A stretch of DNA of 64,000 nucleotides from Fulvivirga ligni (GTDB lineage Bacteria > Bacteroidota > Bacteroidia > Cytophagales > Cyclobacteriaceae): assembly GCF_021389935.1 (NCBI RefSeq), contig NZ_CP089979.1, forward strand, positions 248,001 to 312,000. Direction: 5' to 3'. The notes under the pieces were generated by a model that was not told the origin of the DNA, made no database searches, and saw nothing but the letters and a program-made list of their open reading frames with translations. Within the stretch, counting starts at the first letter, position 1. Each line of letters begins with the position of its first letter. The position numbers were made by a program, and so were the translations under genes. This document shows positions 41,799-53,329 of this stretch, piece by piece.

Positions 41799-42869
41799 TC
41801 ACTTAAACCCCACACTCACACCTCCACAAGTATCCTGGCTTGCACCGGTAACGCTAGACAAACAGTTTGATTGCCCTGTCACTTTTAAAACGCCCAAAAA
41901 AGCAAAAATCAACGCCTCTTTAAAGCCAATCACTTCTTTATTGGGAATTATCACTTCGGTATTCTTGCCAGAATGAAAGTTTATTCTCTCTATTAAATAA
42001 TTGTTAAATGCTCCACCACCTGTAATCAGGAGCTTAGTATTGGGCTTGGAGATTGTGCGAGCTATTTGAATGGCAAAATTCTCAACACAGGTGGCTAAGA
42101 GGTCTTCGTTAGTGTATCCCTTTTGCTCTAGCAGTGGAAAAAAGTTCTTCTCCATCCATTCGAATCCTAATGATTTAGGAGCGGACGCTGAATAAAATGG
42201 CAAATCATTCAAAACCCTCAACAACGAATCATCCACCTGTCCTGATCGAGCGAGGCTCCCCTCATGATCATATGATTTACCAAACCGGGCCGCAAGATGA
42301 TTTAAAGCCATATTACAAGGTGAAATATCAAAGGCTATTCTATCTCCATCATTTTCATAAGAAATATTAGCAATGCCCCCCAAATTAAGGCAGTAATCAT
42401 AATCAGCGAAAAGCAGTCTGTCCCCGATTGGCACCAATGGAGCTCCCTGTCCACCATGAGCAACATCTAATGACCTAAAATCACCAATAACCGGCAATCC
42501 TGTTTTAGCAGAGATATCATTTATATTTCCAATTTGTAAAGTAAAACCATTTTCAGGCTGATGAAATACGGTATGCCCATGAGATGATATAAAATCGACC
42601 TCTAATTCATATTTATCAACAAATTCTTGCACCGACTTACCAATATAATTACCCAAATCATGATCAAGCTGAGTGAGTTGCTGGCCTGAAAGTGTAGTGC
42701 TTTCCATCAACCTTTCAATCATCTCCTGCGGATACTCTAAGGTTTCTGCTTGAATAATTTTAAAGCTCCATTGATCATCCAACTGAAATTGGCAGTAGCA
42801 AATATCCAGACCATCAAGAGAGGTGCCGGACATTAGACCTATTACTTTAAAATGAGTTTTATTTTTCAT
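41799..42869 (-). CDS. anmK: anhydro-N-acetylmuramic acid kinase
   Basis: A 356-residue sugar kinase of peptidoglycan recycling; it converts 1,6-anhydro-MurNAc to MurNAc-6-phosphate. The signature GLMSGTSLDGLDICYC lies at residues 11-26. The blocks SSHGHTVFHQP, LNLGGIANISY and FDISPCNMALNHLA are also typical. Its ATG overlaps the stop of the LanC gene by 4 bases, so it is probably transcribed and translated together with the lanthipeptide enzymes. Function from family is firm; the reason for this coupling is unknown. Confidence 0.93.
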   Translation of the reverse strand: MKNKTHFKVIGLMSGTSLDGLDICYCQFQLDDQWSFKIIQAETLEYPQEMIERLMESTTLSGQQLTQLDHDLGNYIGKSVQEFVDKYELEVDFISSHGHTVFHQPENGFTLQIGNINDISAKTGLPVIGDFRSLDVAHGGQGAPLVPIGDRLLFADYDYCLNLGGIANISYENDGDRIAFDISPCNMALNHLAARFGKSYDHEGSLARSGQVDDSLLRVLNDLPFYSASAPKSLGFEWMEKNFFPLLEQKGYTNEDLLATCVENFAIQIARTISKPNTKLLITGGGAFNNYLIERINFHSGKNTEVIIPNKEVIGFKEALIFAFLGVLKVTGQSNCLSSVTGASQDTCGGVSVGFK

Positions 42870-44779
42870 CTTTCTACTACTAACATTCCTGATAAAAGGT
42901 ATTGTTTAATTTGAGCTAATGCAGCACTTTCCACTTGCACCCTTTCATCCTCATTATTTACTTCACATAAGTTAACAACATTCTTAATTACTATTCCAAT
43001 TTTAGAAGGTAGAAGAAAATTTTTTATAACTGCATGAGAGAATTCATCTAAGAAATATTCATGAACCCCCAAAGGCCCTGGCGCTAATAAGGCATATTCA
43101 CCGTCCACAGATTCAGCTTCAGGGTAATCAGCAAGCTCATTATCATCTGGAATTTTCAGAACAGCACCCAGTAAATCTTTGTCACTGAGTAGTAATGATT
43201 TATTATTTTCTATCTCCACAATTGCTTTTAAATGTCTGTAAGCATCACTTCGATCTTTGCTATCCAAGCTCAATTTTAACAGGTCATAACTCCATTTGGA
43301 CTTAACAGATGCATCTAAATTATCTGAAACAACCGCCAACTCATCAGTTACATACTTCAAAAAACTTATGTTGAAATTTGGCTTGACCAGCTTGATAAGA
43401 AAAGAACCTGATAACGGAAAACATCTATTAAATAATCTTTCAAACAGCTGGTCTTTAGTTAATGATAAAATACCTCCAGCATTTTCACCAAAAACCTTTG
43501 ATAATTCAGGCTTTAAAATAGTAGGACTGCTTATCTTACCTTTTGACACCAATAGATAAAAATATCCAATTCCGGCATCACCCATGAACAAACTAATATC
43601 GGTTTTATCTTTGGCAAATGCATAACCAGAATTATAATAGCCATATTGGTTGTACGAATCCAAGCTCCTTTTTGCAACCTTCTCAACTAACGAATAATAC
43701 TCATTTGCATTATTGAACCTATCTAACTCCATCAAAAATAAAGCATTGCCTCCACCTCCATGACACAAAACAAAGCAACCCGGCAAAGCATTAATATTTT
43801 CAAGGCTCTCCACTGTTTTAGTTGCAGCGCGATTTAGATCTCTTAAATAATCAGATTTCCCCAATACCTGAAAGGCCTTAATTCTGGAAAGTCCAACCCC
43901 CGGAGCACCATGACACCATGCGATCATATCCTTTTCCTGAAAGAAAAATCCTTTATTACCATCGAGATATTCCTTTTTTTGAATCTCAAAAGATTCGTTA
44001 TCGTAAAAACCATTTCTTAAATCTGGCCAATTATTTATCTCATGCTTAAAATGACTATTTTCATAGGCAAAGGCCTGTGTTGCGATATAATAGAAGGTAT
44101 CATTTTGAAAGTACTTGCCGAGCTCCAGAAAAACATAGCCTACTCCTGCTACTCCATGAGAAAAGCCACATAATCCTTTGCTGGCCTTTGCATTCCTATC
44201 CCAATAAAAACCTTCCTCATGTACATTGATTCGGTTGACCAAGTGCTGAACATAGATCTTAATTTTCTCTAAAACTAAATCATTCTTAGTTGTTGCATGA
44301 ATATGCAAAAGACCTAACAATGTGCCTGAAATGCCATTGATAAGATCATCTACTATGGGCTTCTCATCTAAAAAAGTATCACAATCTTTTATTAAGCTTA
44401 ACGCCTTCTGGCTATATTCCGGATTGCCCAAATATTCACCAATTTCAATCAAAGTGGAAGCCACCCCCACTCTACCCGTGTAAAATGAATAATATTTTGT
44501 TGGGTGTTTCGCACAGTAATCCAATAGCCAATCAACCCCTTTAATTACAGCTTCTTGGTATCTATTATAGTTAGTTTCTTTATACAATTCTAAAAGAAAA
44601 TAGATGATACCAGAAACTCCAGAATAAAGACTTTCAGAAGCACTGTATTCCATCTCATTGTGATCTAACAGACTAAGTGTTTCCCAACTGAATCCTTTTT
44701 CAGTGATCTCAACTTCATCCAACAGCCGGTCAGCTATGGCTATAGATGCCTTTAAATATTCATTATCTCTTATTTTCAT
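42866..44779 (-). CDS. LanC-family lanthionine synthetase (cyclase) with C-terminal extension
   Basis: A 637-residue protein. Residues 1 to about 415 form the LanC alpha-toroid. The acid/base His208 lies in GLCGFSHGVAGVGY, and the zinc ligands are Cys289 (AWCHGAPGVG) and Cys339-His340 (LCHGGGGN), the same pattern as NisC. It would add Cys thiols to dehydro-residues of the precursor to form (methyl)lanthionine rings. About 220 residues follow that ordinary LanC proteins (about 400 residues) lack; the last 70 look like a small winged-helix or recognition-type domain (inference). Its start overlaps the upstream elimination-domain gene by 4 bases (ATGA). Confidence 0.9.
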   Translation of the reverse strand: MKIRDNEYLKASIAIADRLLDEVEITEKGFSWETLSLLDHNEMEYSASESLYSGVSGIIYFLLELYKETNYNRYQEAVIKGVDWLLDYCAKHPTKYYSFYTGRVGVASTLIEIGEYLGNPEYSQKALSLIKDCDTFLDEKPIVDDLINGISGTLLGLLHIHATTKNDLVLEKIKIYVQHLVNRINVHEEGFYWDRNAKASKGLCGFSHGVAGVGYVFLELGKYFQNDTFYYIATQAFAYENSHFKHEINNWPDLRNGFYDNESFEIQKKEYLDGNKGFFFQEKDMIAWCHGAPGVGLSRIKAFQVLGKSDYLRDLNRAATKTVESLENINALPGCFVLCHGGGGNALFLMELDRFNNANEYYSLVEKVAKRSLDSYNQYGYYNSGYAFAKDKTDISLFMGDAGIGYFYLLVSKGKISSPTILKPELSKVFGENAGGILSLTKDQLFERLFNRCFPLSGSFLIKLVKPNFNISFLKYVTDELAVVSDNLDASVKSKWSYDLLKLSLDSKDRSDAYRHLKAIVEIENNKSLLLSDKDLLGAVLKIPDDNELADYPEAESVDGEYALLAPGPLGVHEYFLDEFSHAVIKNFLLPSKIGIVIKNVVNLCEVNNEDERVQVESAALAQIKQYLLSGMLVVER

Positions 44780-45777
44780 TGAATCACTTTAAAACTTTCA
44801 GACATTAGATAGGCAAGATAACCTTCATCTTGGTTTTTGATTCCAAGTCTATTATTGGTCATATGTATGAAGCTATCATATACTGACCACAGCCTTTTAT
44901 TCTGTTCAGAGATTTTAAGAGTTTTATACAGTTCGAAGAGATTTGGATAAGAAAAACTCTCAGAATCTACCTCACCAATCATCTCTTTAGTAATTTGTTG
45001 ATTCGAGATTACCCAATCATTCAAAAAATCTTGTTCAAAATCTTCATTCTTCTTTAAGGCGTGCCATATGGTTTCAACATATGGAATCAAAACATTCTTT
45101 TGAGCGGCTAAATTAGACTTAAAGGCGTTCAGCGTATACTCTTTGCGCTTATCTAATTCCTCTTTCGTGATATTTTTATCGTAAACATGATAGGCCCTGG
45201 GAAACCAATTTTGAAAAACCTGATTGAAAAATAACTGCGCCTCAGATTCATTCATTCCTGCCGCATAAGCAAAACTTAAATGCAACTGAATACCTGCTCC
45301 CAATATGCTTGAATAGTCCCAATCCTTGTAATTATCTCTCAGTATACCTAATACGACAGAAGATGACGCCTGAAACTGTTTCTCAGCAATAGGTAGTAGA
45401 GAGCTACCACCGTACCTTACTGTTTCTGGTTCATAAGGCAGGTATTGGATAGAATTATTATCATACCAGCCAGCCATATCATGGGCATTATAATCATTTC
45501 TGTGGGAGGGGTACTTCCTAAGATAGCTGTTAATGTGACCTGACAATAAAGGCTTTAAGAACTTACCAAAAGCATCTTTGTCCGCCTTTAGCCTTAGTCT
45601 AATATGAGGTCCTTTTTCCCAGTATCTTATAAAAAAAAACTGATCGATAGAGTTCTGAAATTCGTCACTCATTATCAGGGGCGATAAGCTTTCTGTAAGA
45701 AAATTTTCCCAAGGCTCTGAATAATAGATATGCACTGCCATCCATTCTTTTTCCACATCTGGTTTATACACCCTCAT
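44776..45777 (-). CDS. lanthipeptide dehydratase, separate elimination domain (SpaB_C/thiopeptide-type)
   Basis: A 333-residue protein with the marks of the C-terminal glutamate-elimination domain of LanB: WMAVHIYYSEPWENFL near the N-terminus, RYWEKGPHIRLRL at 51-63 and YLPYEPETVRYGG. In nisin-type LanB this domain is fused to the dehydratase; here it is its own gene, as in pinensin-type clusters. It would remove glutamate from glutamylated Ser/Thr to give Dha/Dhb. The ATG at 45777 is chosen because it gives a normal N-terminus and starts one base after the stop of the upstream dehydratase gene; a longer frame would overlap that gene. Confidence 0.9.
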   Translation of the reverse strand: MRVYKPDVEKEWMAVHIYYSEPWENFLTESLSPLIMSDEFQNSIDQFFFIRYWEKGPHIRLRLKADKDAFGKFLKPLLSGHINSYLRKYPSHRNDYNAHDMAGWYDNNSIQYLPYEPETVRYGGSSLLPIAEKQFQASSSVVLGILRDNYKDWDYSSILGAGIQLHLSFAYAAGMNESEAQLFFNQVFQNWFPRAYHVYDKNITKEELDKRKEYTLNAFKSNLAAQKNVLIPYVETIWHALKKNEDFEQDFLNDWVISNQQITKEMIGEVDSESFSYPNLFELYKTLKISEQNKRLWSVYDSFIHMTNNRLGIKNQDEGYLAYLMSESFKVIQ

Positions 45778-45778
45778 A

Positions 45779-48547
45779 TTAATTATTAGTATACCATTGC
45801 ACCACAAACTCCGTAACAAACCTTTCATTATCAATCTGAAGCATCTGATTCTTACCTGGGAGAATTTCAACAACACGAAGATTTAGCGGCACTTTTTTAA
45901 AAAGCTTTTCTAATAGGTTCACAAATAATGGATTTCTGAAATCAATATATTGAGGCTTATAATCATCCTTGGTTATTTTCTTTCTAGCCTCTTCATCAAT
46001 ATCCTTATTTGTGCCTAATCTATCCTGATTTACATGTATAAAAACTTCATCAGGAATTTGCTGCTCCTTTCTCCATAAATTAACTGCTCTAAAATAATCC
46101 CAGTCGGAGTCTAAAGGTTGGCGAAACGGCAGTAACTCCTTTGGAATACCCCAGGTTTTTCTTTGTAGAACTATCCGCTCTTCAAAGACAATCCTGGGAT
46201 AAATCTTTATTTTATTGTCATTTTGCTCCGCTTCACTTAGCTGATTAACATAATTGTTGAGACTGTAAGGATGAGTCTGTTCGGAGGGTGTAAATTTTTC
46301 TAAGAGTTGAAATAACTGTGACCTACCGCTCTGCCCCTGAAACCCTAAATCAAAGACATACAATTTCTTATTTGTCGATTTCTGAATTAGTTCTAAAGCC
46401 TCAATCTGGTAATTGTATACAACTGCGAAATCGGTAATTGGGATCTGCATTTCTTCCACCAGTGAATTGTGACTACCAGGCATCCAGACTTCATAAGGCA
46501 TTAATGGGGGATGCAAATTCGCGTTGAAATAAGAGGCATCACAGTTTTCTAACATAATTGCCTCTTCATTTTGTAATATCTGATTAAATGTCCTGAGTTC
46601 ACCTGTAAGGTCTTCATCAAAGACATGGAGAAATCTGCTGTACATTTTACCATAGCCAGGAAAACTACCGTTTAACACAGCTCTTAATTGATCATTTTCA
46701 TAATAAAACTGAAGAAAAGCACCGTAGGAATTAGCCTGACCTCCAGTGTCAGAAAATTTATTTAACTCATTTACTTTCCTTAAAACATCCAGACCAACAT
46801 GTACTTCTTCCTTTCCTATTCGCTGCTTCTTTAATTCCTCAGTAAAGCTCCTCCTCCAATCTTCGATAAGTTGACTTCTGACCTTAATTGACGCAACTTC
46901 GGACATTTCTCCACCCTCTTTTTTCTCTTTATCAGGCCTTTTAATGTCTCTGAAATAGTCTTCATAAAAAGTTAGAACATCCACTTTCTCCTTTGCACCA
47001 TACTTTTTAAGAAAGTAAGCCATCATTCTATCTTTCTCGTTTTTATATGAGTTGAACAACCTCATATGATTTAGTAACTGTTGGAAAGGTTGTATCAGCT
47101 CAGAAACCTCGCCTTGTTCAAAGGTTATTTGACTATCACGAGTTGTATCTTCATAAAAGAGCTGTTCAGGTTTAAAACTAAAAATAGTTGAAGCCCGATG
47201 CTTAAATTCGAAATCTCGCTCTGTTATAGTTGCACCTTCACTATTCTGACTTTTATCAAGAGTAGTTTCTCTCCATTTTTTTTCCAGTTCTTCTAATGGT
47301 TTTCTTTCATCTTCGGGCAATTGGGCCGCTTTATGAATTTTAAAGCAAGCTTCTCTGATTTCGTCAAACGCTTCCTGTAGTATTTCTTTCCGTTCAAATA
47401 CTCCAGCCTTCTCATATTTAAGGGCCAGGCTTCGCAAAGACTTTAATGCCTCAATCAAATCTGATATAAAGGGCACTGACTCTCCCCACAACGATAGTTT
47501 TTCTACTAGCTTAACATCCCAATCTGGGTCTATGCCCGAAACCCCAATGTTATACTCCAAAAGTCCGTAATTGATAAGCTGATTAATATAGTCTTCCAAT
47601 TCTTCAGGTGCTGCATCAACGTCACTTTGAAGGACGGTTATCAATGCCTCAAACTTGAATCCTTCTTCCTGGGAATCAACTGTTTCAATGATGTGGCTTA
47701 CTAAAGGATTTTGTGGCATCCTTTGAAAGGATTCAACATTATTGCTATTCGTCAGGTATAAATAATGATCCTCATTGCTCTGTATTGTAGGGTTAGTTCT
47801 CAACAACAAGTTTAAATAGGCCTCCCTGTATTGTTTCAGAAGATCCGATATGTATTTAAATAGGTAGTTATTTAACCTTATATGTGATATAACCTGAGCT
47901 TCAGAAGTTACTCTTACCTTTTTATTTATTATGTCTGCATCTAAATGAACCTGAGATAGATTTGTAAATGTGCTAAATGGAGAGGTTTTAGTGTAAATCC
48001 TGGATAGATACTGAAGCAAGCTACTCTCCACCTGTAGCTCCTTTTTCCTTGTAATTTTACCCTTTTGATATGCTGAAATCCTGTCTAAGAGATTCTTGCT
48101 AGATAAGAGAAGTCCTTTTTGAAAAGTTGAAGAAGAAACCAGGCGCTTTAAGATCGATTTCGCTGCTTCATTTTCATTTTGATAGATATTTTCACCTTCC
48201 TTCTCTACTCTTTTAATATTATCTATCAGCGCGAGGTATTCTGATAATTTCCCTGCTAATACTGGTGTTAGTGCCAATAGAGCCTTATCTATTTTGCTTT
48301 TTTTTAACTTCCTGCCATTATAAATATCTCGTCTTAGATTTTGTACACTATTCTGATCTTCAGAACTTTCACTGTTACTGATGAAGGCAAAAAGATCATC
48401 ACATAAGACAGACTTGGTTTCTTCCCTTTTAACCTCTAAAAGTGTTAACCGATTTATCTGCTCTGTTAAATATGGGAAATTAAATGATTCCCACTCTTTA
48501 TAAGGAGCACCTCCTATTCTTAATAGTGCTCTCGGAAATAACTTCAT
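45779..48547 (-). CDS. class I lanthipeptide dehydratase, glutamylation part (LanB N-terminal type)
   Basis: A 922-residue protein of the lantibiotic dehydratase family. The block SRIYTKTSPFSTFTNL (182-197) corresponds to the conserved (S)RxxxRxTPFGxFxG region of LanB. The part ending with WGIPKELLPFRQPLDSDWDYF and YKPQYIDFRNPLFVNLLEKL matches the end of the glutamylation domain. It would use glutamyl-tRNA to activate Ser/Thr of the precursor. A highly charged insert (about residues 380-560) is larger than usual. The elimination domain is absent and is supplied by the next gene. It starts 39 bases after the HlyD gene ends. Confidence 0.9.
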   Translation of the reverse strand: MKLFPRALLRIGGAPYKEWESFNFPYLTEQINRLTLLEVKREETKSVLCDDLFAFISNSESSEDQNSVQNLRRDIYNGRKLKKSKIDKALLALTPVLAGKLSEYLALIDNIKRVEKEGENIYQNENEAAKSILKRLVSSSTFQKGLLLSSKNLLDRISAYQKGKITRKKELQVESSLLQYLSRIYTKTSPFSTFTNLSQVHLDADIINKKVRVTSEAQVISHIRLNNYLFKYISDLLKQYREAYLNLLLRTNPTIQSNEDHYLYLTNSNNVESFQRMPQNPLVSHIIETVDSQEEGFKFEALITVLQSDVDAAPEELEDYINQLINYGLLEYNIGVSGIDPDWDVKLVEKLSLWGESVPFISDLIEALKSLRSLALKYEKAGVFERKEILQEAFDEIREACFKIHKAAQLPEDERKPLEELEKKWRETTLDKSQNSEGATITERDFEFKHRASTIFSFKPEQLFYEDTTRDSQITFEQGEVSELIQPFQQLLNHMRLFNSYKNEKDRMMAYFLKKYGAKEKVDVLTFYEDYFRDIKRPDKEKKEGGEMSEVASIKVRSQLIEDWRRSFTEELKKQRIGKEEVHVGLDVLRKVNELNKFSDTGGQANSYGAFLQFYYENDQLRAVLNGSFPGYGKMYSRFLHVFDEDLTGELRTFNQILQNEEAIMLENCDASYFNANLHPPLMPYEVWMPGSHNSLVEEMQIPITDFAVVYNYQIEALELIQKSTNKKLYVFDLGFQGQSGRSQLFQLLEKFTPSEQTHPYSLNNYVNQLSEAEQNDNKIKIYPRIVFEERIVLQRKTWGIPKELLPFRQPLDSDWDYFRAVNLWRKEQQIPDEVFIHVNQDRLGTNKDIDEEARKKITKDDYKPQYIDFRNPLFVNLLEKLFKKVPLNLRVVEILPGKNQMLQIDNERFVTEFVVQWYTNN

Positions 48548-48586
48548 TTGAAATGGTTAGGTGATTGGATAGTTTAGAAAAATGGA

Positions 48587-49882
48587 TTAATCCATTCTAT
48601 TTAGAATGGCCGAAAACTGGCTAAATACTCTTTCTATTAACCTCTTATCCTCCGTGATAATATCGGCTGTTCCTTGCATTTCCTGCTTAAAAGCCAGCGT
48701 CTGATTATAGTTACTGGTTAACCCATTAGGAAGACTTATTCTAATATTATAGGTATCATCTCTTGGCACTAACGCAATAGACTCTACTTTACCCACAAGC
48801 ATTCCATACTCGTTTGAAGGATAGTTATCTACTTTAATATTAACACGCTGGCCAGTCTTTATTTTACCTGAACCCATTATGGGCATAGAAACATTTCCGA
48901 TAACTTCTTCTGAAAGTGGAATTACTGTCATCACCTCTTCACCGGCCTGTACATACTGATTATCACTCCAAAATTTAGAGAATGAAACCTTTCCCGGCAT
49001 AGGACTGATTAATAGATACTGTTGTTTCCATGCAATTAATTCACTTTCAAGGCGCTCGTAGCTAACTATAACATTGGCCTTAAACTGATCAATCTCTTGA
49101 ACTTCTTTTAATTGCAATTCATCAATTTGTGAACGTAGTTCTGCTATTTGGATACTATTCTGAATAATTGACGACTGTAAATTTTCTTTATTTCTTTTAC
49201 TGGCCAGATAGTTAGATTTAGACTTATTCATTTCGGGCTTAGTACCCGCACGCTGTTTATAAAGTAAAGAATCATCTTGATAGATACTTTCTGCTATTTC
49301 TATTTCATTCTCTGCTAATCCTATTTGATCATTAAGACCCGCATTGAGCTTTTCATAATATTTCATTCGCTTACTAAGCGCCGTTCTTTGATTTTCATAA
49401 AAAGAAATAGAAGTAAATCTTTTAGCATCTTCCACTGCCGAAGTGAAGGAAAAATAAATATTTTGTAAAGAGCCAACATTTAAAGATTGATCTAATTGAG
49501 CTGCTTTATCAACAAAGTTATAATTGTAGACATCACTTTTAATTTCTTTCAAATGCTGTTCAAGCGCCATTACATCAGCATATGACGCAGGATTTTCTAT
49601 CACACCGAGGATCCTGTCCTCTTCTATAGTTTGTTTATCCTCGGTCAATAACCGAAGCTTACCTGCTGATCTGGATACTAAATGAACCGGGGGTGTTTCT
49701 GAGGTGAGTACTAACCTGGCACTTGCTGTATCAGGGTATTTGATAAACCAGCTAGATATGATGATTACACCCAACACAATAAAAATTACTGTAATTCCCC
49801 AACGGATTAACCAGTGAGGTATATGACTTAATATCTCCTGAACCTCTTCACTTCTTACTCTGATATTATCAGTATTAGGCAT
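48587..49882 (-). CDS. HlyD-family periplasmic adaptor (membrane fusion) protein
   Basis: A 431-residue protein with one membrane anchor at about residues 26-46. A lipoyl/barrel part follows (LVSRSAGKLRLLTEDKQTIEEDRILGVIEN), then a long coiled-coil hairpin (about 100-270) and a second half-motif near 285-330 (LISPMPGKVSFSKFWSDNQYVQAGEEVMTVI). It links an inner-membrane ABC exporter to an outer-membrane channel. The partner is the C39 ABC transporter two genes upstream; a TolC-like channel is not in the cluster. The gene begins right after a hairpin with T-run that follows the precursor gene. Confidence 0.9.
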   Translation of the reverse strand: MPNTDNIRVRSEEVQEILSHIPHWLIRWGITVIFIVLGVIIISSWFIKYPDTASARLVLTSETPPVHLVSRSAGKLRLLTEDKQTIEEDRILGVIENPASYADVMALEQHLKEIKSDVYNYNFVDKAAQLDQSLNVGSLQNIYFSFTSAVEDAKRFTSISFYENQRTALSKRMKYYEKLNAGLNDQIGLAENEIEIAESIYQDDSLLYKQRAGTKPEMNKSKSNYLASKRNKENLQSSIIQNSIQIAELRSQIDELQLKEVQEIDQFKANVIVSYERLESELIAWKQQYLLISPMPGKVSFSKFWSDNQYVQAGEEVMTVIPLSEEVIGNVSMPIMGSGKIKTGQRVNIKVDNYPSNEYGMLVGKVESIALVPRDDTYNIRISLPNGLTSNYNQTLAFKQEMQGTADIITEDKRLIERVFSQFSAILNRMD

Positions 49883-49905
49883 AAACGCTAGTCTTTTATT
49901 TACGC

Positions 49906-49937
49906 AAAAAATTAGGGCAATTAGAAATTGCCCTAAT
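49906..49937 (-). terminator. terminator/attenuator between precursor gene and HlyD gene
   Basis: On the minus strand a perfect 12-bp stem (attagggcaatt/aattgccctaat) with a 3-base loop is followed by six T. It lies 8 bases after the precursor stop and 23 bases before the HlyD ATG. Its position suggests partial termination, leaving more precursor than enzyme mRNA. Confidence 0.85.
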
Positions 49938-49944
49938 GAATATC

Positions 49945-50193
49945 TTAATTACATGGGCTGCAATGTACAGGTTCTCCTGTATCGCAAGGTCGATGAGTAT
50001 ACCAGGCATTAGGGTTACAAGAAGCGTATGTGCCGCCTCCGCCGCCTCCGCCACCTACAGGACATCCCGCCCAGCCATCAGTGCAGCCATATGTAACATA
50101 ACCTCCTTTAATTGTTTCTGCCTCGTCCTTCAAGTCCTCCGTAATGAAACTTTTTACTTTTAAATTCTCAATCTTTAATTTTTTACTTTTCAT
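49945..50193 (-). CDS. lanthipeptide precursor peptide (pinensin-like leader, Gly8 core)
   Basis: An 82-residue peptide. Residues 1-31 are a charged leader (start MKSKKLKIENLKVKSF) ending in a double glycine (TIKGG), the cut site for C39 peptidases. The KLKxxNLKVKSF block resembles leaders of pinensin-type Bacteroidota lanthipeptides. The 51-residue core has six Cys (core positions 6, 13, 28, 39, 47, 50), seven Ser/Thr (3, 7, 24, 27, 35, 41, 48) and eight consecutive Gly (16-23), and no Lys. The ATG at 50193 is chosen over one 12 codons upstream because the leader then starts like its family. The gene sits between the C39 ABC transporter and the HlyD gene. Ring pattern and activity are unknown. 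Confidence 0.85.
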   Translation of the reverse strand: MKSKKLKIENLKVKSFITEDLKDEAETIKGGYVTYGCTDGWAGCPVGGGGGGGGTYASCNPNAWYTHRPCDTGEPVHCSPCN

Positions 50194-50298
50194 GTCTATA
50201 AAATTTAATTGAATAATTATTTCATTCAATTTAACACAAAAAGGATTAATATTACAATAACATGATAATAGATTAAAATATTGTTAATCAGAAGTTTG

Positions 50299-52485
50299 TC
50301 ATTGCCCTAGTTCTAATTGATTCTTTACTAACTCATAATATGCTCCCTTTTTATCTGCAAGCTCATTATGGGTACCGCTTTCTTCTATTCTTCCATTATT
50401 CAAAACAATTATCTGATCAGCATTTTTTACTGTGCTTAACCTATGTGCCACCACTATCACAGTTCTGCCACTGAAGAATTCGTCCAAATTCTTCATTATT
50501 ATTTTTTCGTTATTGGCATCCAAAGCATTTGTGGCTTCATCAAAGAAGAGATAGCGAGGGTTTTTGTAAACGGCTCGAGCTATTAAAATTCTTTGGCGCT
50601 GTCCTTGACTTAGCCCATGACCGTCACTACCAATTTTAGTATTATACCCCAGAGGCAATACTTTTATGAAATCCTGAATATTTGCAACTCTGGTGGCATA
50701 AAGCAATTTTTCTTTGTCAATTATTTCATCATTCACTGCAATGTTTTTTGCTATTGAATCTGAAAAGATGAATCCATCTTGTAAAACAGCACCACATTCT
50801 TCTCTCCACATTCTATTACCATAATTGCTCAGATTAATATCTCCCAGTTTGATCTCTCCTTGAGTTGGCTCATAAAACTTTAAGAGGAGCTTGATCAAAG
50901 TAGTTTTTCCACTTCCACTAGCTCCTACAATGGCTGTTATCTTGCCCTCTGGTATATTAAAGCTCACATCATCTAAGACATTCTCAGAATGAGGACCTTT
51001 ATACTGGAATTGAACATTTTCCAACTTCAGCGAAAGATCTTCAGGAAATATATCCACCTTTTTATCATCTTCATCTTCCTCATCTTCCTGATTATGAATT
51101 TCACCCAGCCTTTCGAGACTAATTTTGGCATCTTGAGCTGTATGTATAAAACTAACAAGCTGATTCAAGGGCGCATTTAACTGGCCTATGATATATTGTA
51201 TGGCCAGCATCATACCCATTGTAATTTCACCGGTCACCACTGCCTTCGCAGCCAAAAACGTTATTAAAATATTTTTTAACTCATTAATGAAAAATGAGCC
51301 CGCCTGTTGGTATTGATTTAGTGCTAGCCCCTTTATACTCACCTTGAATAATTTTGCCTGTATCCTTTCCCACTCCCATCTCTTTTGTTTCTCGCTATTA
51401 TGAAGTTTAATCTCTTGCATGCCAGTTATAAGCTGTATCAGGCTGCTTTGATTAATTGACATTTGATCAAATCTTTTATAATCAAGATTTCGTCTTTTCT
51501 TCATGAATATTAAAATCCACATAACATAAAAGCCGCTTCCAATAAGGAACACCCAGAATATCCTTAAGTCATAAATAGCTAGCACTACTCCAAAAATCAG
51601 GAGGTTAACGAATGAAAACAGAACATTTAAAGTAGTTGATGTAAGAAAAGCCTCTATTCTACTATGATCACCTATACGCTGTAAAAGATCACCGATCATT
51701 TTAGAATCAAAAAATGATAATGGCAACCTCATCAGTTTTATCAAAAAATCGGAAAGAATCGAAATATTGATTCTAGTACCCAAATGCAATAAGATCCAAC
51801 CTCGTATAAACTCCACTGCTGTACGGCTAAAAAATAACATTAGCTGTGCAATTAAAATCAGAGTTACAAAATTTAAATCCTGATTGGCAATACCAACATC
51901 CACAATGGACTGTGTGAGAAATGGAAATATTAATTGAAGAATACTTCCTAATATCATCCCTAAGAATAGTTGGACGATAAATTTCTTGTATGGCCTTAAA
52001 TATTTAAATAAGAATTGAAATCCCGAGCGATTTACCTTTTCTCCGTCCGCCTCATAAAAACTTGGTGAAGGCTCCAAAAAAAGCACCACACCAATTTCCG
52101 AATTCTTTTCGGAATCACTAAGCCACCCATCAAGGAATTCTTGCTTACTAAGTTTCACTAAACCATGTGCCGGATCTGAAACCAAAACCTTATTCTTTCG
52201 GAATCCATATACCACAATAAAATGCCTCTGTCTCCAATGAGCTATAAATGGAGTGGGAGCCTCTTCTTGAAGTTTATCAAATTGTATTTTAGCTGCCAGT
52301 GTACGAAACCCTATTGACTCAGCAGCATCACTTATACCAAGTAAAGAAACCCCCTCGCGCGTTAGATGGCTTTTCTCCCTTAATGACTGTAAGGAGTAAT
52401 TTTTGCCATAATGCTTAGCTACAATTCTAAGGCAAGTAGGACCGCAGTCCATGGTATCTAACTGTCTGTAATTTGGAAATCGCAT
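50299..52485 (-). CDS. C39 peptidase-containing ABC transporter (bacteriocin processing and export)
   Basis: A 728-residue exporter. The N-terminal C39 protease has Cys14 (DTMDCGPTCLR), His88 (QRHFIVVYGF) and Asp104 (SDPAHG), the expected triad for cleavage after double glycine. Six membrane segments span about 165-430. The ATPase follows, with GASGSGKTTLIKLL (Walker A), LSQGQRQRILIARAV (signature), FFDEATNALD (Walker B) and the VVAHRLSTV H-loop. It would cut the leader off the modified precursor and pump the product out with the HlyD protein. It is the first gene of the cluster; 105 bases separate it from the precursor gene. Confidence 0.95.
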   Translation of the reverse strand: MRFPNYRQLDTMDCGPTCLRIVAKHYGKNYSLQSLREKSHLTREGVSLLGISDAAESIGFRTLAAKIQFDKLQEEAPTPFIAHWRQRHFIVVYGFRKNKVLVSDPAHGLVKLSKQEFLDGWLSDSEKNSEIGVVLFLEPSPSFYEADGEKVNRSGFQFLFKYLRPYKKFIVQLFLGMILGSILQLIFPFLTQSIVDVGIANQDLNFVTLILIAQLMLFFSRTAVEFIRGWILLHLGTRINISILSDFLIKLMRLPLSFFDSKMIGDLLQRIGDHSRIEAFLTSTTLNVLFSFVNLLIFGVVLAIYDLRIFWVFLIGSGFYVMWILIFMKKRRNLDYKRFDQMSINQSSLIQLITGMQEIKLHNSEKQKRWEWERIQAKLFKVSIKGLALNQYQQAGSFFINELKNILITFLAAKAVVTGEITMGMMLAIQYIIGQLNAPLNQLVSFIHTAQDAKISLERLGEIHNQEDEEDEDDKKVDIFPEDLSLKLENVQFQYKGPHSENVLDDVSFNIPEGKITAIVGASGSGKTTLIKLLLKFYEPTQGEIKLGDINLSNYGNRMWREECGAVLQDGFIFSDSIAKNIAVNDEIIDKEKLLYATRVANIQDFIKVLPLGYNTKIGSDGHGLSQGQRQRILIARAVYKNPRYLFFDEATNALDANNEKIIMKNLDEFFSGRTVIVVAHRLSTVKNADQIIVLNNGRIEESGTHNELADKKGAYYELVKNQLELGQ

Positions 52486-52621: not shown

Positions 52622-53329
52622 GTGAATCTCATAGTTGATTTTGGTAATACTTCCATTAAAGCTGCAATTTTTGATGGAAAGAATCTTGTTCGAACATATT
52701 CTGACATTTCACCTCAAAATCTCAAAATGTTAAACGATGAAAATAATCTGGAGCATGTAATAGTTAGTAGTGTCACAAAAAGTGAACAGGAAATAAAAGA
52801 AGTCTTAGAACGTGACCTAATATATCTATCAAGCTCTTTACCCCTCCCCTTTCAAATAAACTATAAAACGCCACAAACCCTGGGGTTAGACAGAATTGCC
52901 GGTGTAGCCGGTGTACAAGAGTTATTTCCTAATGAGAATGCTTTGGTTATAGACATGGGAACCTGCATAACCTATGATTTTATAGATGCTAACTCTGTAT
53001 ATCACGGTGGTGGTATTTCACCAGGTATGAAAATGAGATTCAAGGCCTTGCATAATTTTACAGCCAAACTACCGTTGATAGAACCTGAAGAAGACGTTGA
53101 GCTCACCGGGCAATCTACCAAAGAGTCTATTTTAAGTGGTATAATATACGGCATTTCGGCCGAAATAGACGGAATTATTCGGATGTATAGTGACAAATGT
53201 GCACATTTGCGGATTATAATTTGCGGTGGTGACGCCAAATTCTTTGAAAACAAGCTTAAAGCAGGCATATTTGCAGCCCCTGAATTAGTACTCATGGGCT
53301 TAAACAGGATATTACTTTACAATGCATAG
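52622..53329 (+). CDS. coaX: type III pantothenate kinase
   Basis: A 235-residue kinase that phosphorylates pantothenate in coenzyme A synthesis. The N-terminal block LIVDFGNTSIKAAIFDG, then LGLDRIAGV and VIDMGTCITYDFID are the three marks of CoaX. The start is a GTG; no ATG fits. It is divergent from the C39 transporter gene and overlaps the next gene by 8 bases, starting a long plus-strand run of envelope genes. Confidence 0.93.
   Translation: MNLIVDFGNTSIKAAIFDGKNLVRTYSDISPQNLKMLNDENNLEHVIVSSVTKSEQEIKEVLERDLIYLSSSLPLPFQINYKTPQTLGLDRIAGVAGVQELFPNENALVIDMGTCITYDFIDANSVYHGGGISPGMKMRFKALHNFTAKLPLIEPEEDVELTGQSTKESILSGIIYGISAEIDGIIRMYSDKCAHLRIIICGGDAKFFENKLKAGIFAAPELVLMGLNRILLYNA

Follow-up and report, generated by a model that had tools for sequence, protein, structure and literature searches.

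A pinensin-type lanthipeptide cluster in Fulvivirga ligni with a predicted RiPP recognition element on its LanC cyclase

We identified a gene cluster for a class I lanthipeptide of the pinensin type in a stretch of 64,000 nucleotides (the window) from Fulvivirga ligni (contig NZ_CP089979.1, positions 248,001-312,000; genome 6.52 Mb). Its LanC cyclase carries a tail of 220 residues, the end of which is predicted to fold as a recognition element (RRE) for ribosomally synthesized and post-translationally modified peptides (RiPPs). The cluster spans window positions 42866-52485 and consists of six minus-strand genes encoding, in order, a C39-peptidase ATP-binding cassette (ABC) exporter, the precursor, an HlyD-type adaptor, a LanB glutamylation protein, a separate LanB elimination protein and LanC. 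We place the probability that the cluster is intact and of this type, as part of an explanation that includes leader binding by the LanC tail, C39 cleavage and export, at about 0.8. A sequence-only reading of the window had already proposed these six genes, and the open reading frame (ORF) list together with Pfam and NCBIfam matches recovers all of them with the same positions, order and strand. The RRE-like tail had been overlooked.

50299..52485 (-), C39-peptidase ABC exporter (peptidase-containing ABC transporter, PCAT), 728 aa; PF03412 (6.4e-35), PF00664 and PF00005, C39 domain at about residues 5-121
50101..50193 (-), precursor leader, 31 aa, ending in KGG at residues 29-31; NF038180 leader_pinensin, 5.5e-11, 42.2 bits, cut-off 24
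49945..50100 (-), precursor core, 51 aa and stop codon; six Cys, five Thr, two Ser and an eight-Gly linker
48587..49882 (-), HlyD-type adaptor, 431 aa; PF13437 (9.6e-11), TIGR01843 (2.8e-27, below its cut-off)
45779..48547 (-), LanB glutamylation protein, 922 aa; PF04738 (2.7e-35), Glu-tRNA dependent by family
47552..47779 (-), putative LanB RRE, LanB residues 257-332, aligned by the LanC tail (hhalign P-value 0.03, probability 1.7%)
44776..45780 (-), LanB elimination (putative glutamate lyase) protein, 334 aa; PF14028 (2.2e-43, 149.7 bits)
43529..44779 (-), LanC cyclase domain, residues 1-417; Cys289, Cys339 and His340, with His208
43172..43474 (-), helical part of the LanC tail, residues 436-536; from AlphaFold models, no family recognised
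42866..43162 (-), predicted RRE/PqqD-like domain of the LanC tail, residues 540-637 and stop codon; from AlphaFold and Foldseek

The precursor and its enzymes

The precursor gene (49945-50193, minus strand, ATG at 50193) encodes 82 amino acids. The leader has the form MKSKKLKIENLKVKSFIT...KGG and is the sole match over the NF038180 cut-off in the genome. Since it exceeds the cut-off of the NCBIfam pinensin family, the cluster is of a kind that is already known. It reads LKIENLKVKSFITEDL where Walker et al. describe the motif LxLxKx5L, and the hydrophobic spacing is kept while the position of the Lys is not exact. The core is YVTYGCTDGWAGCPVGGGGGGGGTYASCNPNAWYTHRPCDTGEPVHCSPCN. With seven Ser/Thr and six Cys in 51 residues it has the composition of a class I precursor, and the KGG at residues 29-31 is a likely cleavage site for the exporter, whose C39 triad is intact. 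Every Cys has a Ser or Thr N-terminal to it and therefore up to six rings are possible, although any ring pattern would be an inference from the sequence. The calculated mass of the unmodified core is 5151.06 Da, and that of a core with six or seven dehydrations is 5043.00 or 5024.99 Da.

The sequence-only reading had found the core unfamiliar, and indeed it has no match in Pfam or NCBIfam and differs from everything in the libraries searched; the whole precursor is likewise without a Pfam match. Judged by its sequence the core is a new family that recurs in relatives. In the two closest (G301 and G309), none of the six Cys or seven Ser/Thr sites is lost, and the linker consists of 7 or 8 Gly. 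A further precursor (G322, 59% identity), encoded in a different genus of the same family, also has six Cys and shows the pattern Y-T--C--GW-GC ... SC-PN--YTHRPCDT ... HC-PC; its Gly linker is broken, its leader ends in KAG, and Glu replaces the last Ser. In a fifth copy (G327) the core pattern is present with one Cys and one Thr fewer, and there is no recognisable in-frame leader. At E 0.001 there are precursor matches in 8 of 196 genomes of the family, most of the rest arising through the leader or the Gly stretch. The core family lends itself to heterologous production and comes from a genus that has been little explored.

Gly-rich linkers also recur in otherwise dissimilar cores that follow the same leader family (L040 1454-1681 and 987-1202; L107 14319-14588). 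At a locus from an Ignavibacteria metagenome-assembled genome (L095 5905-20648), 16 small ORFs lie near one tailed LanC; they share a single conserved type of leader, but their Cys-rich cores differ widely. This arrangement suggests one machine serving many substrates, as in the prochlorosins.

The exporter contains Cys14, His88 and Asp104 as well as the Walker A motif and an LSQGQ signature. These C39 residues, and the four LanC residues listed above, had been named by the sequence-only reading and are correct in the translations. TolC-family domains are matched 30 times in the genome, in 16 reading frames. The glutamylation and elimination domains (PF04738 and PF14028) lie on two separate proteins, and the LanB is thus split. 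The best match of the glutamylation protein in the PDB is the lantibiotic dehydratase domain protein 6ec7 (7.4e-18), and R10, R183, K187, S189-T193, R785 and R796 are invariant in 19 of 19 aligned sequences. The elimination protein starts at an ATG overlapping the stop codon of lanB, upstream of which the automatic ORF list places a GTG start. It aligns with TbtD and MibB, and the MibB alignment spans the HIRLR and YEPETVRYGG stretches. Residues H59, R61, R63, E119, H306 and R311 are invariant in all 22 aligned sequences and R122 is nearly so; we take their catalytic roles in glutamate lyases from work on NisB.

The LanC gene (42866-44779, minus strand) encodes 637 amino acids, of which the LANC_like match (PF05147, 6.9e-58) covers only residues 48-416, a point absent from the sequence-only reading. 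The zinc ligands and His208 are invariant in 32 of 32 sequences of a chosen alignment. The best NCBIfam match is a LanM model, at 253 bits below its cut-off of 304.

Compared with F. sediminis, which carries the same cluster, dN/dS ranges from 0.047 to 0.146 over the six genes and is 0.072 for the whole precursor, ratios that are rough because dS in the cluster genes is 0.8-1.2 and near saturation. Four of five neighbouring genes have values of 0.03-0.11, and the fifth has a saturated dS. By this sequence comparison the six cluster genes, precursor included, are under purifying selection. We considered a pseudogene or partial cluster and rejected it on the low dN/dS and the intact catalytic residues. 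The earlier assignment to a Bacteroidota-type class I lanthipeptide cluster is borne out by the pinensin-family leader, the split LanB, the C39 exporter, the LanC with zinc ligands and the dN/dS of 0.05-0.15.

Our comparison with the pinensins, antifungal class I lantibiotics of Chitinophaga pinensis, rests on the leader family and the published description. The leader family NF038180 is common to both, as is the LanM-like lineage of LanC, to which the below-cut-off LanM match points here. The pinensin system also has a split LanB, according to the portion of Walker et al. (PMC7268733) drawn on here. The pinensin cluster itself was not found by name, there being no Chitinophaga among the titles of 61 related loci, and the accessible part of the chitinocin paper reports no lanthipeptide. 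Walker et al. (2020) described Bacteroidetes clusters with GG leaders, C39 proteases, split LanBs and LanM-related class I LanCs alongside pinensin-family precursors (PMC7268733). Their family I_17 and Bacteroidetes GG-leader LanAs share all four features with the window's cluster. However, the available part of that paper mentions no C-terminal extension or RRE on LanC. Two further class I lanthipeptides of Bacteroidota, from ChmABC (Chryseobacterium OV715) and RuiABC (Runella limosa), have been made in E. coli with glutamyl-tRNA synthetase (GluRS) and tRNA-Glu of Chryseobacterium, as the section of PMC9993889 at hand relates. The sequence-only reading overstated the rarity of such clusters, which are published and frequent in the phylum (PMC7268733).

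The tail of LanC

An AlphaFold model of the whole LanC, built on a 32-sequence alignment, has a mean pLDDT of 93.0 and a pTM of 0.92; the tail modelled alone has a pLDDT of 89.9. The last domain is predicted to contain strands at 548-551, 562-568 and 571-577 and helices at 579-586, 594-605 and 610-630, with an extra short strand (540-542) before them. This order of three strands and three helices is the one that defines an RRE in the consulted part of PMC12710340. A Foldseek search with the tail places PqqD (5sxy) first, with an E-value of 0.0046 and a probability of 1.00. The MibB dehydratase (5ehk, 0.96) and the lasso leader-binding proteins 6jx3 (0.99) and 5v1v (0.95) are also among the top matches, and ThcOx and MccB are in the top ten. 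The four solved RREs thus stand at ranks 1, 2, 3 and 6, with E-values of 0.0046-0.36. Chains that are not RREs are interspersed among the matches, some of them methyltransferases with probabilities of up to 0.82.

Pfam finds PqqD (PF05402) in 4 of 32 tails (best 1.9e-5), and the only match of the tail profile to PDB sequences is a lasso PqqD-family chaperone (E 0.029). Within the RRE part, Q623, G631 and L577 are well conserved in relatives. A LanB elimination domain or a second cyclase was considered for the tail and set aside, as Foldseek and Pfam indicate PqqD/RRE. On these models, the end of the LanC tail is predicted to fold as an RRE and most likely binds the same leader as LanB. The predicted domain shares fold and element order with known RREs (PqqD, TbiB1, the lasso B1 proteins and the RRE of LanB). 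Known class I systems have their RRE in LanB, as far as the part of PMC12241602 drawn on describes them, whereas here the predicted RRE is fused to LanC behind a helical domain.

The 61 loci drawn from the LanC alignment comprise 18 that are LanM-like, none with a tail, and 43 that are LanC-type. Six of the latter are cut by a contig end, and the tail is present in 33 of the 37 uncut loci and missing from 4. This count is a description and not an independent test, because the tail profile was itself built from 31 of the 33 tails (L104 and L107 being the exceptions). Where an uncut LanC-type locus has two separate LanB proteins in the stretch, the tail is found in 21 of 22 cases.

For a less biased sample we sought LanB (PF04738) in 395 Bacteroidia genomes and found it in 46. 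Sixty stretches were fetched: 56 around the LanB genes of the other 45 genomes, 2 around tail matches away from LanB, and 2 from R. limosa. With a LanC profile that was built on pinensin-type LanCs and is weak for others, the 56 LanB stretches yielded 30 complete LanC-like frames of 372-451 aa, all tailless, in 27 stretches, and 3 tailed LanCs (632-676 aa), each in a different stretch; the remaining 26 had no recognisable complete LanC. Two of the tailed LanCs (L255, L256) are on contigs already in the profile and the third (L250) is new. A further new one of 668 aa (L258) came from the tail-match stretches. The four tailed LanCs of the survey lie in genomes with a pinensin-type LanB (L250, L255, L256, L257). 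The tail may therefore be a marker of pinensin-type clusters, since in this LanB-centred sample it separated their complete LanC frames from the commoner short LanCs of Bacteroidia.

The tail profile matches 6 of the 395 genomes of the class, the window's own included. When the window's tail sequence was searched singly against 296 genomes of the phylum, it matched three: its own genome and, weakly, G245 and G065. The tail profile did not confirm the two weak matches (L052, L053), which were set aside. Three LanCs occur in R. limosa, any of which may be RuiC: one is tailed (L101, 653-aa frame), and the other two, of 418 and 399 aa, have no tail. The LanC of 418 aa adjoins a fused LanB of 1116 aa. 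We also considered whether a split LanB as such is linked to the tail and rejected this. Five Bacteroidia genomes (L216, L217, L223, L224, L229) combine a LanB frame of 735-753 aa with an elimination protein encoded on a frame of its own (284-319 aa), and the sole LanC recognised among them (L216, 417 aa) is tailless. A tail-like domain also occurs in an open frame of 541 aa in which no cyclase domain was recognised (L259 8496-10118, G099), a possible switch of partner.

An RRE-fused LanC is not described in the accessible text of PMC7268733, PMC7470986, PMC12710340, PMC10352776, PMC9486935 and PMC12241602, nor is it evident in the other titles and abstract openings surveyed; it may already be known elsewhere.

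In some relatives the LanC-like protein has no zinc ligands. At four loci (L045-L048; genomes G304, G300, G367 and G308) WCHG is replaced by WAHG or WTHG, and CHG by ANG, TNG or LQG. The precursors of L046-L048 have a near-identical core (HPTHTE-TD-HETCTCD), and the stretch also contains C39, HlyD and both LanB genes. In this sub-group the cyclase of a class I-like cluster may work without zinc or be a pseudo-cyclase.

Proposed mechanism and alternative explanations

We infer that LanB would bind the leader of the precursor and load glutamate from Glu-tRNA onto Ser and Thr residues of the core, and that the separate elimination protein would remove the glutamate to give dehydro-residues, to which the zinc-containing LanC would add the Cys thiols. 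The predicted RRE of the LanC tail would bind the leader, and the peptide would be passed between, or shared by, two leader-holding enzymes, LanB and LanC each holding the leader by its own RRE during ring formation. The C39 domain would then cut past Gly-Gly, and a path of ABC exporter, HlyD and TolC would export the 51-residue product, for which the sequence-only reading had suggested an antimicrobial or signalling role. Pinensin-type cyclases would on this proposal be a distinct kind of LanC with its own RRE, and the leader would be handed from dehydratase to cyclase or bound in one complex with the split LanB. We give this even odds.

There are precedents for parts of this proposal. For MadB, the portion of PMC12241602 seen describes leader binding at the LanB RRE, and PMC8546558, also seen in part, describes the nisin precursor as held in turn by NisB and NisC. 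We liken this division of labour, with its alternating hold of the precursor by LanB and LanC, to the one proposed here. A LanC with its own RRE would give a physical basis for the alternation that the nisin pull-downs imply. The nisin enzymes differ, as NisC (2g02, about 400 residues) is too short for such a tail and NisB is one chain where the LanB of F. ligni is split. Nor is nisin known to be matured by C39. Substrate recognition by LanC is less clear than that by LanB, and because this LanC has its own RRE-like domain the question is directly testable with one truncated protein and one leader.

Several observations weigh against this interpretation. No tail match in Foldseek reaches an E-value of 0.001, the window's own tail has no Pfam match over cut-off, PqqD included, and the tail aligns with LanB residues 257-332 only weakly (hhalign values as listed above). 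The predicted leader-binding face (beta3 and alpha3) is not clearly better conserved, with values of 0.39 and 0.40 compared with 0.27-0.43 for the rest of the tail, and this test thus did not support a specially conserved face. A leader-like small ORF was found at only 16 of the 33 tailed loci, some of which are short contigs. The Cys/Cys/His zinc set of LanC is lost in 4 of 14 rows of another alignment of relatives. In one relative (G309; L041 13005-14947) the lanC is broken: it is spread over two frames that overlap, the second of which carries the tail, and a stop interrupts the match. Finally, none of the six cluster genes was recognised as a regulator or an immunity gene.

The similar conservation of the beta3/alpha3 face would also fit a cluster that works but whose tail is only a structural or docking module (for LanB, the elimination protein or the exporter), with LanB alone holding the leader. 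The true interface could then be the helical half of the tail, for which no match was found, and the authors of RRE-Finder, in the accessible part of PMC7470986, regard some LanB-fused RREs as possibly vestigial. However, 33 of the 37 uncut LanC-type relatives have the tail, small ORFs with the common leader type occur at 16 of 33 tailed loci but at none of the 18 LanM-like ones, and Q623, G631 and L577 are well kept. We therefore regard a docking role as possible but clearly less probable than leader binding by the tail.

The lack of a regulator and the broken lanC of one relative could instead indicate that the cluster is silent or a relic, with no product under natural conditions, which we consider unlikely given six open genes, intact catalytic residues and a low, if rough, dN/dS. 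A product that is not a lanthipeptide is more improbable still. The elimination protein does exceed the cut-off of the thiopeptide-type model TIGR03891 (104.5 bits, cut-off 48.45) and its best PDB match is TbtD, so that it might be a pyridine synthase of thiopeptide type. Its match to PF14028 is stronger, however, and the residues H59, R61, R63, E119 and H306 are kept throughout. A thiopeptide cluster was rejected because the six proteins include no second eliminating protein and no YcaO, and a LanC with zinc ligands is present. Leader binding by the LanC tail within a working lanthipeptide cluster is the interpretation that we retain.

The broken lanC of G309 sits with a nearly identical core, and may represent a natural loss or an assembly error.

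Genomic site and expression

41799..42869 (-), anmK, anhydro-N-acetylmuramic acid kinase, a host gene outside the pathway
52622..53329 (+), coaX, type III pantothenate kinase, the other border of the insertion
49905..49937 (-), hairpin with a 12-bp stem and a T run, possibly a partial terminator separating lanA from the genes downstream

The cluster lies between anmK and coaX. The start codon of anmK overlaps the lanC stop by 4 bases, which the sequence-only reading had not mentioned, and anmK is therefore probably co-transcribed with lanC. The closest titled relatives are Fulvivirga species, and F. sediminis (L035/L070) has the same cluster at the same site, with protein identities of 69-91% over the six genes. 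All 15 genomes of the genus have anmK. The cluster is found between anmK and coaX in two of them (F. ligni and F. sediminis), the two genes are direct neighbours without it in seven, and in six another neighbour or a contig end lies beside anmK in the short stretch viewed. A related cluster is present elsewhere in three of the seven genomes with an empty site (G297, G303, G309). This distribution makes it most likely that the cluster was acquired as one block at this position. A search for border repeats of an inserting element gave imperfect repeats only, and among the matches listed (20 of 29 direct and 25 of 35 inverted repeats) none flanks the insert.

Histidine kinases with tetratricopeptide repeats (TPR_12, HisKA_3, HATPase_c) lie beside four related clusters (L041 4494-6485, L036 1714-3744, L040 3506-5293, L037 12139-14133) but not beside that of the window.

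A scan for sigma-70-type promoters was uninformative (50 sites, 41.8 expected). A Bacteroidota promoter pattern had 5 matches in the window, where 3.97 were expected, and none inside the cluster. Terminator-like sites show no excess across the region (6, with 6.5 expected). The hairpin after lanA has a free energy of -14.6 kcal/mol and a z-score of -4.39, and none of 200 shuffled sequences was as good. Its counterpart in the sister species is weaker (z -1.79, 8 of 200 shuffles as good) and appears in the centroid but not the minimum-energy fold. The hairpin may favour expression of the precursor over that of the enzymes.

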